Below are positions 3,584 through 32,363 of a stretch of DNA of 35,895 bases, piece after piece (position 1 is the stretch's first letter; each line of letters starts with the position of its first letter). The position numbers and the translations under genes were made by a program. The notes beneath the pieces were generated by a model. The model did no database searches. It was not told the DNA's origin and saw only the letters and a list, made by a program, of their open reading frames with translations. The stretch comes from a virus. The stretch is taken from positions 1 through 35,895 of IMG/VR virus record IMGVR_UViG_3300012954_000027; one strand, 5' to 3'.

Positions 3584-4383
3584 AAAAAATATTATTAGTT
3601 AGTGGTTGTAGTTTTACCGATCCACATTGGCATAGTGATATACATCCTGATATGATTTGTGATTGGCCTAAATGGCCTCAAATAGTCGCTGATGAATTAA
3701 ATATGGAGTGTGTTAATCTAGGAGTAAGTGGATCAGGCAATGAAAGAATTTATAGTAGTATATCTGATTTTGTCACAACACCTGAAGATCAAACACCTAC
3801 ATTTGTATCAAAAATGCATTTGATGGATAAACATTATGAATTTCCAAAAGGTGAGATTGGTCTAGTTGTGGCTGCCTGGTCACAAGGTCATAGACGTGAT
3901 TGGTCTGAATATAGATTTGTTAAAAGAGATCAAAAGAAAGATTTATGGACTAATGAAAACTTTGATACAAAAGGAGATTTACATTATCATGTATTAAAGT
4001 CAATAAGATTACAATATGCATATCAAAATTTATGTAAACAACTTAATTTAACTTACTGTCACTTTCAAATGATATCATTATGGAGAGCATGGGTACATTT
4101 TAAAGTAAAAGATAAAAATCCAGTTGAATTTGAAAAAGAGTTTTTTGATTTAATCAAGAGTACAGGTTATAATGAACTAATAAACAAACATTTTTTAGGT
4201 TGGCCATGTGATGTAGTAAACGATAAATATTGGGGAGAAAAGTCCTTTGTACTATCTGATTGTTTAAAAGCACAACACAAAGTATCAAACAAAGATGTAC
4301 ACCCTAATAAGATAGGACAAGAACTACTAGCAGAGGAGTTTTTAAAAAGATTGCATGAAAATAAGATACTACAAAAAGATTGA
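3580..4383 (+). CDS. SGNH/GDSL-family hydrolase
   Basis: A 267-residue protein with the SGNH blocks in order: SGCSFTD at residues 8-14 (nucleophile Ser, with the usual Gly before a variable residue), GVSGSGNERI with the oxyanion Gly/Asn at 51-54, and DVHPN at 239-243, where Asp239 and His241 fit the catalytic DxxH-type pair. No signal peptide is seen, so it should act in the cytoplasm. SGNH enzymes next to glycosyltransferases usually add or remove acetyl or other esters on glycans, which fits this operon. The exact substrate is unknown. Confidence 0.6.
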   Translation: MKKILLVSGCSFTDPHWHSDIHPDMICDWPKWPQIVADELNMECVNLGVSGSGNERIYSSISDFVTTPEDQTPTFVSKMHLMDKHYEFPKGEIGLVVAAWSQGHRRDWSEYRFVKRDQKKDLWTNENFDTKGDLHYHVLKSIRLQYAYQNLCKQLNLTYCHFQMISLWRAWVHFKVKDKNPVEFEKEFFDLIKSTGYNELINKHFLGWPCDVVNDKYWGEKSFVLSDCLKAQHKVSNKDVHPNKIGQELLAEEFLKRLHENKILQKD

Positions 4384-26591: not shown

Positions 26592-27122
26592 ATGGCAGTA
26601 AGTATACTAGATACATTAGTTGATAAGGCTGATGGCGCTACGAAATCAGCGTCATGGTACAGACGTGCTGTAGGGTCTATTGCAGACAGAATAACAGCCA
26701 GAAAACTAATTAGACAGAATAAATTGATTGGTAGACCAAGTGTTGGTAGATTAAATCTCTTTGTTTATGATCCTAAATATAAACAGACATTGCCATATTA
26801 CGATGTATTTCCTCTAGTTTTACCACTAGAGACAATAAAGGGTGGTTTTGCAGGTATTAATTTTCATTATCTGCCACCAAACCAAAGATTTACTTTATTG
26901 ACACAATTACAAACGTTTAACGTACAAGGTGGTGAGGTAAACAGTAGCAATAGATTTGATGTAAGTTATAACAGAATTAAAAAGTTACCGTTGGCAAAAG
27001 GTTGTATTAAGAAATATCTATATAGTCATATGAGAAGTAGATTTTTAAAGATAGACTATGACGAAGCTGCATTAGCAGTATATTTACCAATTGCTGACTT
27101 TAAGAAAGGGAGACCATATTAA
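26592..27122 (+). CDS. Conserved T4-like virion-assembly protein (gp2-like candidate)
   Basis: A 176-residue basic protein. The core is LPYYDVFPLVLPLETIKGGFAG-type, then INFHYLPPNQRFTLLTQL, then CIKKYLYSHMRSRFLKI and VYLPIADFKKG at the end. This set recurs in T4-like marine phages at the head of the tail block, sometimes annotated as the DNA end protector gp2, which I cannot confirm. It has no ribosome site and starts immediately after a late promoter. It overlaps the next gene by one base. Confidence 0.55.
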   Translation: MAVSILDTLVDKADGATKSASWYRRAVGSIADRITARKLIRQNKLIGRPSVGRLNLFVYDPKYKQTLPYYDVFPLVLPLETIKGGFAGINFHYLPPNQRFTLLTQLQTFNVQGGEVNSSNRFDVSYNRIKKLPLAKGCIKKYLYSHMRSRFLKIDYDEAALAVYLPIADFKKGRPY

Positions 27123-28102
27123 TGGCGATTTTAAGAGGCGGAAAAAGAATAGGCGGATACGATATTAGAATTGGTATACCAAGAGACAGGTCATTAGACA
27201 ATGTTACCGGTGATCCAAGATTAAAACGTACACAAGGTGGTAATCCTGAATCTACAATGGGTAGAGTACAATCAATGGTCAATGAGGCCGAAGGCTTTGC
27301 TCGTAAGGCAAGATTTTATGTTGAGTTTCAATTACCATCATCTTTAGGTGGTGGTCCTGATGGTTCAGCAGGTTCAGTATCTTCATCAATGACAGATGAA
27401 ACATATGGTTCATTTAGAACTAGTGCCGATATGAATGCTATTCATATAGCAAATGGTAGACGTGTTCAAGCATTTTGTTCAGCAATAGAAATGCCTGATA
27501 GAGAAATAATTACAAAAGAAGTTAGACATGGTAATACACCAGCAAGACACGTAGCATACGATTTTAAATCAGCAGAAATAACAGCAACATTTTATGCTGA
27601 TAAATTTTTAAGAGAGAGATCATACTTTGAAGCATGGCAGGCTGCCGCTTTTAGTACAAAATCTTTTAACATGAACTATTACAAGAATTATGTTGCTGAC
27701 ATGAGAATATACCAATTAGGACAATTTGCGTCAAGACAAGAACGAGACGATATAACATATGCAGTACAATTGTTTGATTGTTTACCAACAAATATTAGTA
27801 AAGTAGAATATTCTCACGATGAAAATACAGTACAGACTTTTTCTGTCACATTTAAATTTATGTATTGGATTAATTTCTTTCTTGATAAACAAGGCGAGAT
27901 AGAATTAGGTCAATCTACATTTAATCAACCGACAGTAAAACAAAATTCAGGTTTATTAGGTGGTTTATTAGGTAAACTACCACCAGAATTGAGACGAGCA
28001 GGTAGAGACGTGTTGAACAATTTGAGACGTAGAGTACCACTAGGTAAAATTACCGGTGGTAGAGCGTTCCCACCGTTCAAACTACCACCAATAAATATAT
28101 AA
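27122..28102 (+). CDS. Tail tube-like baseplate protein (gp54-like candidate)
   Basis: A 326-residue protein with the tube-type beta plan: ARFYVEFQLPS, VQAFCSAIEMPDREI, ARHVAYDFKSAEITATFYAD, SYFEAWQAAAFS, and then SVTFKFMYWINFFLDKQG. This pattern is shared by T4 gp19-fold proteins of the tube and its initiators gp48 and gp54. The C-terminus is a Pro/Arg-rich extension (PFKLPPINI). It probably starts the tail tube or forms part of the hub. Its position before the gp26-gp51-tape measure set fits that. The specific T4 number is uncertain. Confidence 0.55.
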   Translation: MAILRGGKRIGGYDIRIGIPRDRSLDNVTGDPRLKRTQGGNPESTMGRVQSMVNEAEGFARKARFYVEFQLPSSLGGGPDGSAGSVSSSMTDETYGSFRTSADMNAIHIANGRRVQAFCSAIEMPDREIITKEVRHGNTPARHVAYDFKSAEITATFYADKFLRERSYFEAWQAAAFSTKSFNMNYYKNYVADMRIYQLGQFASRQERDDITYAVQLFDCLPTNISKVEYSHDENTVQTFSVTFKFMYWINFFLDKQGEIELGQSTFNQPTVKQNSGLLGGLLGKLPPELRRAGRDVLNNLRRRVPLGKITGGRAFPPFKLPPINI

Positions 28103-28120
28103 TAATTAGGAGATAATATT

Positions 28121-28855
28121 ATGGCATTACCAGTAATAGAAACACCGACATATGAGTTGACTCTTCCATCACAAGACACAAAAGTTAGTTTTAGACCTTT
28201 TCTTGTTAAAGAAGAAAAGTTAATGTTAATAGCTCTAGAGTCAGGTGAAGAAAAACAAATACAAGAGGCAACTAAAAAAATATTGGCTGCCTGTACATTT
28301 AATAAAATAGATGTAGAAAACTTACCAACATTTGATATAGAGTATATGTTCTTACAAATAAGAGCAAAGTCAGTTGGTGAGATATCAAAATTTAAAGTAA
28401 TTTGTCCAGACGATAAGACAACTTATACAGATATAGAAATAGACTTAACAAAAGTTGAGGTTCAAGTTGATGATAATCATACAAACAAAGTAGTAATTGA
28501 TGACACTAGGCAATTGGGTGTTGTTCTCAAATATCCTACAATGTCAATGATGACCAAAACAAACTTGAAAGACGCCGACTATGACACAGCCTTTGATTTA
28601 ATGGTTGGTTGTGTACATGAAATATTTGAAGGCGAGAAGATATATCCTGGACAAGATAGTACAAAAGAAGAACTGAAAGATTTTTTAGAAAAGTTACCAC
28701 AAGGTGCTTTTGATAAAATTAGAGTATTTTTTGACACTATGCCTAGATTGAGACATGAACAAGAAGTCACAAATCCAAAGACAGGTGTTAAAAGTACAGT
28801 GACCTTTAGTGGTCTACAAGATTTTTTCGGATTGGCCTCACCCATAACAGCCTAG
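28121..28855 (+). CDS. 26: Baseplate hub/tail assembly chaperone gp26-like
   Basis: A 244-residue protein of the T4-type baseplate protein family: YELTLPSQDTKVSFRPFLVK, EEKLMLIALESG, QEATKKILAACTFN, and SVGEISKFKVICPDD. In T4, gp26 is a hub protein. The layout here (tube-like gene, this gene, an overlapping frame, a membrane gene, the tape measure) equals lambda G/GT. A T_TTT_TTC slippery site at 28822-28828 near its end would fuse it to the downstream frame. It has AGGAGA before the ATG and ends at a TAG inside the predicted stem. Confidence 0.78.
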   Translation: MALPVIETPTYELTLPSQDTKVSFRPFLVKEEKLMLIALESGEEKQIQEATKKILAACTFNKIDVENLPTFDIEYMFLQIRAKSVGEISKFKVICPDDKTTYTDIEIDLTKVEVQVDDNHTNKVVIDDTRQLGVVLKYPTMSMMTKTNLKDADYDTAFDLMVGCVHEIFEGEKIYPGQDSTKEELKDFLEKLPQGAFDKIRVFFDTMPRLRHEQEVTNPKTGVKSTVTFSGLQDFFGLASPITA

Positions 28856-28859
28856 AGGC
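28822..28859 (+). promoter_or_regulatory. Predicted programmed -1 frameshift site
   Basis: T_TTT_TTC (28822-28828) read in the gp26 frame as GAT TTT TTC, so X_XXY_YYZ holds. After six bases GCCTC (28835-28839) pairs with GAGGC (28855-28859), a stem of five GC-rich pairs whose loop holds the start of the gp26 TAG. The -1 frame is open from 28810, beyond the slip, and joins the gp51-like frame to the TAA at 29011-29013. Slip and stem are seen; frameshifting itself is inferred. Confidence 0.72.
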
Positions 28860-28884
28860 GTACTTTGAAGTAAATTTTTCGCTA

Positions 28885-29013
28885 ATGCAACATCATAAAT
28901 ATAGCATTAGTGATTTAGAGAACATGATACCATGGGAACGTGATGTATATGTTCAAATGTTAATTAATTATATAAAAGAAGAAAACGAGAAAAGACAAAG
29001 GGAGAAACAGTAA
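28885..29013 (+). CDS. 51: gp51-like baseplate hub assembly domain (probable frameshift extension of gp26)
   Basis: The frame 28810-29013 encodes AYFEVNFSLMQHHKYSISD, then LENMIPWERDVYVQMLINYI and a charged tail, a pattern seen in gp51-like proteins of marine T4-like phages. A free start would be the ATG at 28885 (42 residues), but it has no ribosome site and cuts off the conserved EAYFEVNF part before it. A -1 shift at 28822 would instead give gp26 fused to all of it (about 296 residues). It ends with a one-base overlap with the next start. Confidence 0.65.
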   Translation: MQHHKYSISDLENMIPWERDVYVQMLINYIKEENEKRQREKQ

Positions 29014-29309
29014 TGGAAACTGAAACAAAAAAAGTAAATTTAGAATTAGAGATTGACACTAATACTGTTGACTCTAGTAAAAACAGATATCAAGGTTTAA
29101 TTGATCTTGCAAAAGCAATAGACAGTTGGAGAATATTTCCTAGAGTATTCATCACTACATATATTTTCTTACTATACAAAGTAGTAATATGGTATATGGA
29201 ACTACAGGCACCTACTATGGAACAAAGTGGGTTAGTATCAATAGTTGTTGGTGCTGGCGCTGCCTGGTTTGGTTTATACACAGGAAGTAGAGCAAAATCA
29301 ACTAAATAG
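29013..29309 (+). CDS. Two-helix membrane protein, holin candidate
   Basis: A 98-residue protein with a charged N-terminal half and two membrane helices (IFPRVFITTYIFLLYKVVIW and LVSIVVGAGAAWFGLYTG), then a short basic tail. The size, helix number and basic end fit phage holins; similar proteins are conserved in marine T4-like phages between the tail chaperone and tape measure. A tail-tip membrane role is the alternative. It has an AAAGGGAG ribosome site and a one-base overlap with the gp51 frame. Confidence 0.55.
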   Translation: METETKKVNLELEIDTNTVDSSKNRYQGLIDLAKAIDSWRIFPRVFITTYIFLLYKVVIWYMELQAPTMEQSGLVSIVVGAGAAWFGLYTGSRAKSTK

Positions 29310-29315
29310 TATTAT

Positions 29316-30740
29316 ATGGCATTACCATCAGTAGACACACAAACAAACGACCAAACTCAATTAGCAATTGACAAGTTAGGTAAATCAATAATGGAAAAAG
29401 CATCCATGTCAATACAAGGTGCTACAAAGGCCATTATACCAAATATACCTAAAATGATCAATGAGTTAACAATGGATTTAGAGAAAGGTCCTATTACTAG
29501 TTTTGGCAGAGTTATAAAAAAACTAGAGTCTATGGTACAATCATTAGGTTTAGATTTAAGAGAATACAATCAAGACTTGGCTAAACTATTACAAGATAGA
29601 GAAGAAAAGGCCGTTAAATCAGAGGCAGCGGTACAAAGATTAAGAGAGCAAGGTGTTATTGCACGTGTTAATCAGACAACAAAAGAAGTCAAGATATTAT
29701 CTAAACATGAAATCAAACAAGAAGAAAAGGCCATAAAATTAAGAGAACAAAAAATAACAAAACTAGAATTACAATTAAAGAAAGACGCTCACAAACTACA
29801 AACACGTATGTTTGGTAAAGATGAAAATCAGGCGAATACAAAGAAAAAAATACAAGAAAATTCTGTTAAGTTAGAAGAACTAAAAGCACTTCAAGAACAA
29901 AAACAAACTGATATATCTACAGGCACTACTGCTGACACAGGTAGAAGTAAACCATTGCCAATGTTTGTAGAAGAATTAAAAGGTGCATTTATGGAACCAT
30001 TTGCAGCCATAGGTGAATCGTTTAATATGTTGAAAGATACAGGTAAAGGTTCTGCTGAACTAGTTAACTTCTTGACAGGTGGTATATTCTTAAAAGCATT
30101 TAAAGGACTAACAAGAGGTATCAAAGCAATTGGTGGTTTCTTTACATTGGCTAGATTAGCCCTAGTTGCTAAATTTGCATTGATTATAGGTGCTATTACA
30201 TTTGTTGCAGCTAAAATAAAATCTATTGTTGGTTTCTTTCAAAAGATACTTGATTGGTTTAGAAACTCACGTTTAGGTAAATTATTAGGTTTATCAAAAG
30301 AAACACCTGAAGAAAAAGCAGAGAGAGAATATCAATCAGAGAACTTTGGTCTTAATGATGGTTTTGATGAACTAGACAGCCATTTCAAAGGTACGCCAAA
30401 AGAAGAAATGCCAAAAGAAGATGTACCAAAGGCTGAAATGAAAAAAATGGACAGTACAGAGTCAACAACTATAGTACCTCAAAGTGATGGTGAAATTAAA
30501 GAAAAAGTTAAATCTTTCTTTAAAGGTTTATTTGAGAAAGCAACTAACATGAAAGACAAAGCTGTTGAGTTTGCTCAAGCACAAAAAGATAGCGCATTGA
30601 ACAATCAAACTGTAGTAATTAATAATGCACCAACCACTGTATCACAAAATCAATCAGGAACAGTTGTGTCAGGTTATGTAAATAATAAACCAGACGAAAC
30701 AATAATCAATACGTCAAGTAATAATTGGCGAGATATTTAA
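29316..30740 (+). CDS. 29: Tape measure protein, gp29-like
   Basis: A 474-residue protein with the tape-measure plan: an N-terminal helical region, a long charged coiled coil (about residues 95-195), hydrophobic helices near 250-310 (LARLALVAKFALIIGAITFV), then an acidic/Lys region and a beta-rich C-terminus. T4 gp29 (590 residues) measures the tail and joins the hub. The length here would set a shorter tail than T4 if it scales. It follows the G/GT-like genes, as in other long-tailed phages. Its TAA overlaps the gp4 stop on the opposite strand by four bases. Confidence 0.65.
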   Translation: MALPSVDTQTNDQTQLAIDKLGKSIMEKASMSIQGATKAIIPNIPKMINELTMDLEKGPITSFGRVIKKLESMVQSLGLDLREYNQDLAKLLQDREEKAVKSEAAVQRLREQGVIARVNQTTKEVKILSKHEIKQEEKAIKLREQKITKLELQLKKDAHKLQTRMFGKDENQANTKKKIQENSVKLEELKALQEQKQTDISTGTTADTGRSKPLPMFVEELKGAFMEPFAAIGESFNMLKDTGKGSAELVNFLTGGIFLKAFKGLTRGIKAIGGFFTLARLALVAKFALIIGAITFVAAKIKSIVGFFQKILDWFRNSRLGKLLGLSKETPEEKAEREYQSENFGLNDGFDELDSHFKGTPKEEMPKEDVPKAEMKKMDSTESTTIVPQSDGEIKEKVKSFFKGLFEKATNMKDKAVEFAQAQKDSALNNQTVVINNAPTTVSQNQSGTVVSGYVNNKPDETIINTSSNNWRDI

Positions 30741-31165
30741 GATAAATCTTTTTCAGTTATAATTTTAAATTCAGCACCATTGTCTTTACAATATTTGGTA
30801 GCGGCTTGCCATTTAGCTTTATTTCGTATATACTCAAAACTCTCACGCATATATGATCTAGTCTTGCGACCAGTTGGTTTCTTTGGTGGCACACATTGAC
30901 GTGATGGTTTAATCTCAATCAATAGTTTTTTACCTTGTTTTGTTCTTACAATGAAGTCTGGAAAATATCTATGCCATTTATTGTCAATAGGACTATAGTA
31001 CCGTATTGGTAACTCCTCACTTGCCCAATGGTCTATATCTGGATTTTTGTCTAGGTACACCATCATACGTCTTTCTAGTAAAGAACGATAAATAATATTA
31101 GTTGGATCGCCAACGTACTTACTAGGGTTGGCAGGTGTATATTTTCCCTTAAAAGATTTCTTCAT
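30737..31165 (-). CDS. 4: Head completion nuclease gp4
   Basis: A 142-residue protein on the minus strand, close to T4 gp4 (150). It has KYVGDPTNIIYRSLLERRMM, then YLDKNPDIDHWASEELPI and HRYFPDFIVRTKQGKKLLIEIK, where PDF and EIK are the TnsA-like nuclease acids and Lys. In T4, gp4 (also called 50/65) finishes the head before tail joining. The start at ATG 31165 gives the family N-terminus; the in-frame ATG at 31240 would reach across the late promoter. It is the only minus-strand gene in the window. Confidence 0.83.
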   Translation of the reverse strand: MKKSFKGKYTPANPSKYVGDPTNIIYRSLLERRMMVYLDKNPDIDHWASEELPIRYYSPIDNKWHRYFPDFIVRTKQGKKLLIEIKPSRQCVPPKKPTGRKTRSYMRESFEYIRNKAKWQAATKYCKDNGAEFKIITEKDLS

Positions 31166-31171
31166 AACTGT

Positions 31172-31179
31172 TATAAATA
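31172..31179 (+). promoter_or_regulatory. T4-type late promoter in a divergent intergenic palindrome
   Basis: An exact TATAAATA at 31172-31179, 26 bases before the ATG at 31206, in the 40-base gap between gp4 (minus) and the gp48-like gene (plus). The surrounding 24 bases (31171-31194) form a near-perfect palindrome around ATATAC-AA-GTATAT. On the minus strand a TATATATA gives a weaker late-type box that could serve gp4. Confidence 0.65.
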
Positions 31180-31205
31180 TACAAGTATATATAAAGGAAT
31201 TAAAT

Positions 31206-32363
31206 ATGGCTTGGACATCTAAAGTAGCAAACATAATCAAAGGTCAGATAGGAGCGGCTGTTGGTAGATCAATTGCCAGCAAGTTATCATTTGCTTCATC
31301 TGGTCAGACATCAAAAGTAGCGGCTAAACTATTAAACAAATCGCCGTTAGAGATAGGGTCAACAGGACCATTGACACATATGGAGTCAGTAAACAATCCA
31401 TATAATTATGGTACTGTATTTTATCCTGAAGAAACATCAAATCTAGGTGCTGGTCATTATGTTATATTTGATATAGTATCTCACAAGTCATCAAAATTTA
31501 AAACACAAACATTTAACAACGGTCAATTAACATCTGGTTCTAATAATCAGTTTGATAATTCCGATGTTAGTAATAGAATTTCAAATATAAAAAGAAAAGG
31601 TATCACATCATCATCAAGACTAAAATCTACATCAAGTGGTATTATGTCAAAAGTTGGTGATACACATAATTATATTTCAGACAGTATTATATTATATACA
31701 CCAGCAGAGGCAATGAAATTTAATTACAGTGCTAGTTATGAAGACGCACAAACAGGACTTGCAGGAGATTTAGGTGCTAGTATTGGTAGTATAATGAACG
31801 ATCCAGGTTTTTTAAACAAGATACAGGCTGCCGGCGAAGGCGCTGCTGGTCTTGGTAGAGAGTTAGGTAAGTCTGCTATATTTGCAGCTGCTAGTATTAT
31901 ACCAGGTTTTGAAAACAGTAGACAATTATTTGATAAGACATTAGGTCAGGCAAAGAACCCTAATTTAGAAACAATATTCCAATCAGTACCATTTAGACAG
32001 TTTAGTTTTCCTTTCTTATTTGCACCTAAAGACGAGAAAGAAAAAGATCAAGTACATAAAATTTTACAATTGTTTAGATTTCATATGTTGCCTGAGCAAC
32101 AAAATGCATTTGCTAAAGTTGGTTATTTTCATGTACCATCAGAGTTTCAAATAACATATATGTACAGAGAAAACGAGAACTCATATTTACCAAGAGTTAG
32201 CCGTTGTGTGTTAAAAGAATGTAATATTGATTACGCACCAGAGGGTGTTGTATCATCACTAATTGCAGACGAGAAAGGCGCACCACCAACTCTTATCAAA
32301 ATGGATTTAACATTTGGCGAGACAGAGATTATGACTAAACAAACTGTAGCGGAGGGTTTCTAA
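31206..32363 (+). CDS. 48: Baseplate tail tube cap, gp48-like
   Basis: A 385-residue protein. The start at 31206 (MAWTSKVANIIKGQIG) has an AAGGA ribosome site; a longer frame from 31128 would overlap gp4. The N-terminal part has GSTGPLTHMES, the middle has Gly/Ala-rich helices, and the C-terminal part has FRHF-type strands: FHVPSEFQITYMYRENENSY, RCVLKECNIDYAPEG and LIKMDLTFGETEIMTK. This C-terminal set is typical of T4 gp48/gp54 proteins. It is followed by gp53, as in T4-like phages. The number gp48 is preferred over gp54 on that synteny. Confidence 0.68.
   Translation: MAWTSKVANIIKGQIGAAVGRSIASKLSFASSGQTSKVAAKLLNKSPLEIGSTGPLTHMESVNNPYNYGTVFYPEETSNLGAGHYVIFDIVSHKSSKFKTQTFNNGQLTSGSNNQFDNSDVSNRISNIKRKGITSSSRLKSTSSGIMSKVGDTHNYISDSIILYTPAEAMKFNYSASYEDAQTGLAGDLGASIGSIMNDPGFLNKIQAAGEGAAGLGRELGKSAIFAAASIIPGFENSRQLFDKTLGQAKNPNLETIFQSVPFRQFSFPFLFAPKDEKEKDQVHKILQLFRFHMLPEQQNAFAKVGYFHVPSEFQITYMYRENENSYLPRVSRCVLKECNIDYAPEGVVSSLIADEKGAPPTLIKMDLTFGETEIMTKQTVAEGF

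Follow-up and report, generated by a model that had tools for sequence, protein, structure and literature searches.

A probable −1 frameshift joining gp26 to the gp51 tail in the tail assembly chaperone locus of a marine T4-like phage

Long-tailed phages of several kinds make two tail assembly chaperones from one locus. In phage lambda, the short protein and its overlapping extension (G and GT) lie between the tail tube gene V and the tape measure gene H, and the slip heptamer is G GGA AAG. In phage P2, the FETUD operon contains an annotated −1 frameshift that extends E into E+E', with the slip at T TTT TTG (read GGT TTT TTG) near the 3' end of the short gene, and E together with its −1 extension stands directly ahead of the tape measure gene. 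For the T4-like phages, gp26 (TAC-N) and gp51 (TAC-NC) have been identified as the tail assembly chaperones (Vladimirov, Gautam and Davidson 2022, Virology 566:9-15, as credited in later papers). Among the papers citing that work, one describes polyT −1 signals in T4-like TAC-N genes (PMC12846349), and another says that certain T4-like phages encode the short and the long form in separate genes (PMC10274946). According to the former, the TAC locus of the Vandenendeviridae and Andersonviridae (phage Adele), a different phage group, keeps the −1 frame open past TAC-N in all genomes and has a polyT near the 3' end, the motif being GTTTTT and not T TTT TTN (PMC12846349). In T4 itself, genes 26 and 51 sit on opposite strands, as the T4 record shows. 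The abstract of the study that identified the two chaperones reportedly describes frameshifting as seemingly conserved across several groups of T4-like phages, with T4 itself using genes 26 and 51. Our search for literature joining gene 26, gene 51, the baseplate hub and a frameshift found none.

The locus described here lies in a window of 35,895 bases that spans an entire virus record (IMGVR_UViG_3300012954_000027), and its features are collected in Table 1. Its proteins belong to the same family as the T4-like chaperones of Vladimirov et al. (PF12322/phrog_150 plus the phrog_634 tail), but whereas T4 obtains the two forms from two genes, here a single, apparently frameshifted locus would supply both. 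The locus is of a known kind, since citing papers credit Vladimirov et al. (2022) with the T4-like TAC genes and since polyT −1 signals are already known; the idea of a gp26/gp51 frameshift is thus not new, being the subject of that work, and the window adds a member. The likeness to P2 extends to the contractile tail, the type of slip site and its place near the short gene's 3' end, but P2 E has 91 residues against 244 here and no sequence similarity between them is shown; the same lack of shown similarity holds for lambda G and gp26, and the lambda heptamer differs. The near-universal heptamer with its −1 frame, the lack of any other start for the tail, the T4 fusion and the TAC-like model of gp26 together make it highly probable that gp26 and its −1 frame form one gene with two products, the TAC-N and TAC-NC chaperones of a marine T4-like phage, made by a −1 slip at T TTT TTC much as P2 makes E/E+E' and lambda makes G/GT. 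We infer the slipping, its rate, the chaperone function, the tape-measure partner and the role of the downstream RNA structure.

Table 1. Features of the gp26/gp51 locus and its neighbours (positions in the window)
Feature	Position	Strand	Evidence
Tail tube protein gene, directly upstream of gp26	27122..28102	+	phrog_45 tail tube, E 2e-33
gp26 = TAC-N (short form), 244 aa	28121..28855	+	PF12322 E 1e-64; phrog_150 E 3e-70; AlphaFold2 pLDDT 91.7
−1 frame ORF = gp51 tail = TAC-C, 67 codons	28810..29013	+	phrog_634 E 1e-28
Slippery heptamer T TTT TTC, gp26 phase	28822..28828	+	Sequence reading; T TTT TTN in phase in 245/248 relatives
Spacer, 6 nt	28829..28834	+	Sequence reading
Candidate stimulatory stem, 5' arm GCCTC	28835..28839	+	GCCTC/GAGGC kept in 23/28 group A loci; window stem alone z ~0
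gp26 stop codon TAG	28853..28855	+	Sequence reading
Candidate stem, 3' arm GAGGC	28855..28859	+	Begins at last base of gp26 TAG
Predicted long form TAC-NC, 297 aa, junction QDFF-RIGLT	join(28121..28828, 28828..29013)	+	Inferred from sequence; natural fusion homologue T4 gp51
Candidate tape measure gene, 474 aa	29316..30740	+	Position only; no family match

On re-reading, the preliminary description of this DNA proved correct in all its coordinates: the heptamer is in the right phase (the codons are GAT TTT TTC, ten codons 5' of the gp26 stop), the spacer is six bases long, and the −1 frame stays open from before the slip to its stop, an opening of 67 codons that would be expected with P ~0.003 from base composition alone. 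The window gp26 scores 218 bits against PF12322, for which the cut-off is 24.5. In the PHROG search the −1 frame product matches phrog_634, a family named “baseplate hub assembly catalyst”, and also positions 230-276 of the 282 positions of phrog_150, such that phrog_150 runs on from gp26 into it. Reading across the slip thus gives a gp26-like domain followed by a gp51 tail, the architecture of the long form of the T4 gp26/gp51 family. In the proposed mechanism most ribosomes would stop at the gp26 TAG and release the short form, and a fraction would slip back by one base on U UUU UUC; the two tRNA-Phe would re-pair there with UUU UUU, base 28828 being read twice. The slipped ribosomes would then read on to the −1 stop and produce a long form composed of gp26 residues 1-236 and 61 residues of the gp51 tail. 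By analogy with lambda G/GT, both forms would coat the tape measure and recruit the tail tube protein.

The relatives comprised 242 loci from five IMG/VR scans and isolate genomes taken from annotated records. A profile located gp26 in all loci except the T4 stretch; the gene end was usable in 252, and at least 150 nt past the gp26 stop were available in 248. The gp51 tail was found best in the −1 frame in 247 of these 248, and a T TTT TTN in phase stood exactly at the overlap in all but three (TTC 208, TTA 25, TTT 12), so that aligning the gp26 3' end in related phages, a check proposed beforehand, showed the heptamer to be conserved. It was likewise kept after dereplication by gp26 identity at 90% (145/148), 70% (63/65) and 60% (35/37). 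Elsewhere in gp26 genes an in-frame T TTT TTN occurs only 0.0009-0.0012 times per codon, and an in-phase hexamer is expected ~0.01 times per 12-codon stretch. Codon choice ahead of the slip likewise favours T|TTT, which is expected in 0.49 of the sequences from the encoded amino acids and the codon usage of the same genes and is observed in all that have the site; the sequences are related, so their joint probability cannot serve as a true P value. Heptamers of this type occur too in phage isolates of Pelagibacter, Synechococcus, Prochlorococcus, Sinorhizobium, Stenotrophomonas, Citrobacter, Aeromonas, Vibrio and Delftia. The loci fall into a group A, which includes the window and in which gp26 stops 10 codons past the slip, and a group B, in which it stops 2-4 codons past; their −1-frame peptides are colinear (FFRI.LSH..LE.YY..NF).

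The canonical heptamer is missing from three of the 248 loci, all of them divergent: Vibrio phage K364 (L091, around position 3720) and two loci of Ackermannviridae type (L094 and L257). In these the gp51-like tail is still in the −1 frame at the gp26 stop, and the slip site reads ACG CTT TTT GCG or CAG GTT TTC ATC; a non-canonical slip or re-initiation is possible there. Scans of viral contigs with the gp26 of Vibrio phage K491 and of Delftia phage PhiW-14 gave no new loci except one copy of PhiW-14.

Most database records annotate gp51 as a separate short gene, which would be expressed from an ATG of its own or by re-initiation after the gp26 stop. Such a gp51 of about 44-57 residues stands in the records of Mosig, HTVC008M, S-PM2 and P-SSM2, about half of the group B loci have an ATG just past the gp26 stop (53 with the ATG and without a Shine-Dalgarno-like motif), and in Vibrio phage K364 the gp26 stop and an ATG overlap (TAATG). 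However, the conserved −1-frame peptide (FFRI.LSH..LE.YY) and the heptamer both begin upstream of any such start. In the window the first −1-frame ATG (28885-28887) lies 63 nt past the heptamer start and has no ribosome site, and none of the 28 group A loci has a start codon that could include the conserved Leu11 of the tail, which bears out the earlier remark that the gp51-like frame lacks a ribosome site and that its conserved residues precede its first ATG. Observations that had been named in advance as speaking against the shift (an in-frame stop between slip site and gp51, loss of the heptamer, or a ribosome site plus ATG covering the conserved EAYFEVNF segment) were not encountered in the group of the window; in the wider family, apart from the three loci without the heptamer, an ATG with a ribosome-site-like motif for the tail was seen in 1 of 145 loci over both groups. 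Since T4 gp51 moreover has a gp26-like domain ahead of its tail, we regard a separately started gp51 as improbable. In the non-overlapping part of the −1 frame, third positions are the most variable, a coding-like pattern.

Two further explanations would keep the joined product but dispense with a slipping ribosome. The six-T run at the junction could perceivably cause RNA polymerase to slip, such that the long form would arise from altered transcripts; the run is, however, only six long, its phase is held as T TTT TTN, as ribosome slippage requires, and RNA structure peaks just downstream of the slip, all of which makes polymerase slippage very improbable. T runs are also error-prone in sequencing, and one open frame might have been split by such an error or by a broken gene, but 247 of 248 loci, finished isolate genomes included, have the frame split identically and at this same position, which refutes this explanation and leaves it with practically no weight. 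We therefore retain ribosomal −1 frameshifting. What had been proposed before, a −1 shift joining gp26 to the gp51 frame by analogy with G/GT, is supported by the conservation of heptamer and frame, the lack of an alternative start, the T4 gp51 fusion, the TAC-like fold and the adjoining tail tube gene.

The signals that might assist the slip are less uniform. Across the family, local RNA folding is more stable than expected only around the heptamer and immediately 3' of it (mean z −1.8, and −2.2 at +12), z staying near 0 in other regions, and individual hairpins can be strong, as in S-PM2 (z −6.4) and P-SSM2 (z −4.3). The GCCTC/GAGGC stem over the gp26 TAG, to which the preliminary description had drawn attention, is present as described but no stabler than shuffles: as an individually significant structure it was rejected, with z +0.2 and −0.1 against dinucleotide shuffles. 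Its retention in group A, where the loop varies, is weak evidence, because both arms are also codon-constrained, and the covariation by which its conservation was to be judged is almost absent from the 5-bp stem. When hairpin covariation was followed by register, only a few double changes were left per cluster, because the registers differ between lineages. A search of Rfam gave no match (best E 0.44, far below the gathering score). In group B, GAGG, GGAG or AGGA often starts 12-15 nt upstream of the heptamer. The Glu of codon −5 is GAG in 64/89 cases versus a background of 28%, and the Gly of codon −4 is GGG in 33/147 versus 6%. The window has AGT GGT at these codons and is without the Shine-Dalgarno-like element that is often present upstream in other lineages. 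We tentatively suggest, as a reading somewhat short of even odds, that the T4 superfamily inherited the slip heptamer from its ancestor and has kept it almost fixed, while the signals that assist it are replaced from lineage to lineage: in group B most lineages carry an upstream Shine-Dalgarno-like element (GAGG, GGAG or AGGA) ~10 nt before the heptamer, often with strong hairpins in lineage-specific registers, the group of the window would have a weak, near-invariant stem, mostly without that element, and the Ackermannviridae- and K364-like phages would have gone over to re-initiation or to a slip of non-canonical type.

The T4 proteins themselves offer a natural counterpart of the predicted long form. 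The full-length match of T4 gp51 to PF12322 (E 4e-52) takes in residues 1-201, and residues 197-245 form the same tail, while T4 gp26 is without the tail, ends in GLKEFFELL and has lost the slip site (TTC TTT). Judged by sequence, T4 gp51 resembles the frameshift product, now fixed as a gene of its own. The earlier equation of gp26/gp51 with G/GT thus finds support in conservation, fold and the T4 fusion, but has to be amended in that the “−1 frame gp51” corresponds only to the C-terminal part of T4 gp51, which is the whole long form. In structural comparison, residues 1-85 of the gp26 model align with the HK97 tail assembly chaperone 2ob9 over 83 of 107 residues at Z 7.7, a Z under 8 being no proof by itself; 2ob9 ranks second of 688 chains, with unrelated chains starting at Z 4.8 and the next at 3.0. 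The model also aligns with 3fgx, an uncharacterised protein of Bacillus stearothermophilus, at Z 7.8. Foldseek alone gave E 1.8 for the gp26 model, and the gp26 profile retrieved no relative from the PDB sequences. The modelled N-domain of gp26 would thus have a TAC-like fold that resembles the HK97 chaperone, at a Z below the level that is safe alone. The gp51 tail is predicted to be helical (model pLDDT 82), and Foldseek found no significant match for its model. At window residues ~95 and 218-222 of the gp26 alignment, non-marine relatives and T4 gp26/gp51 have CxxC pairs (e.g. CPKCG) that resemble a zinc site; in the marine group NPKTG takes their place, and from the alignment the site seems to have been lost.

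None of the 14 isolate records that we viewed around gp26 joins the two parts, which are either annotated separately or lack the tail altogether. According to Sullivan et al. (2010; PMC3037559), cyanophage and marine vibriophage gp51 is without its first ~200 residues; we would explain this seeming stump by the missing part being supplied by gp26 through the shift. For this lineage the locus settles the most likely route by which the gp51 part is expressed, and the presence of the gp51 tail in 597 phage records suggests that many of them carry a mis-split, correctable gene. The collected loci also amount to a natural alignment of unusual size in which the helper signals of a −1 slip site can be studied. 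In two Aeromonas phages (L089 and L095) gp51 is not annotated, yet the tail is in the −1 frame behind gp26; such an unannotated tail may lie behind the report that gp51 is missing in Aeh1 (PMC3037559).

Downstream of the locus, the −1-frame stop TAA overlaps the next ATG at 29011-29015 (TAATG), which is preceded by GGGAG and opens the gene for a 98-residue protein of phrog_10198, a family of unknown function. The large gene that follows it had been called a tape measure; it is in the right position, the same place in HTVC008M being held by a gene that matches tape-measure PHROGs (E 8e-12), but it has no family match, and its product gave no convincing alignment with the tape-measure candidates of Mosig and HTVC008M. 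Further on, the gp48 ORF (31128-32363, plus strand) is listed with a TTG start that lies within the head-closure gene gp4 (phrog_218; 30737-31240, minus strand), and the true starts of both ORFs are probably further in.
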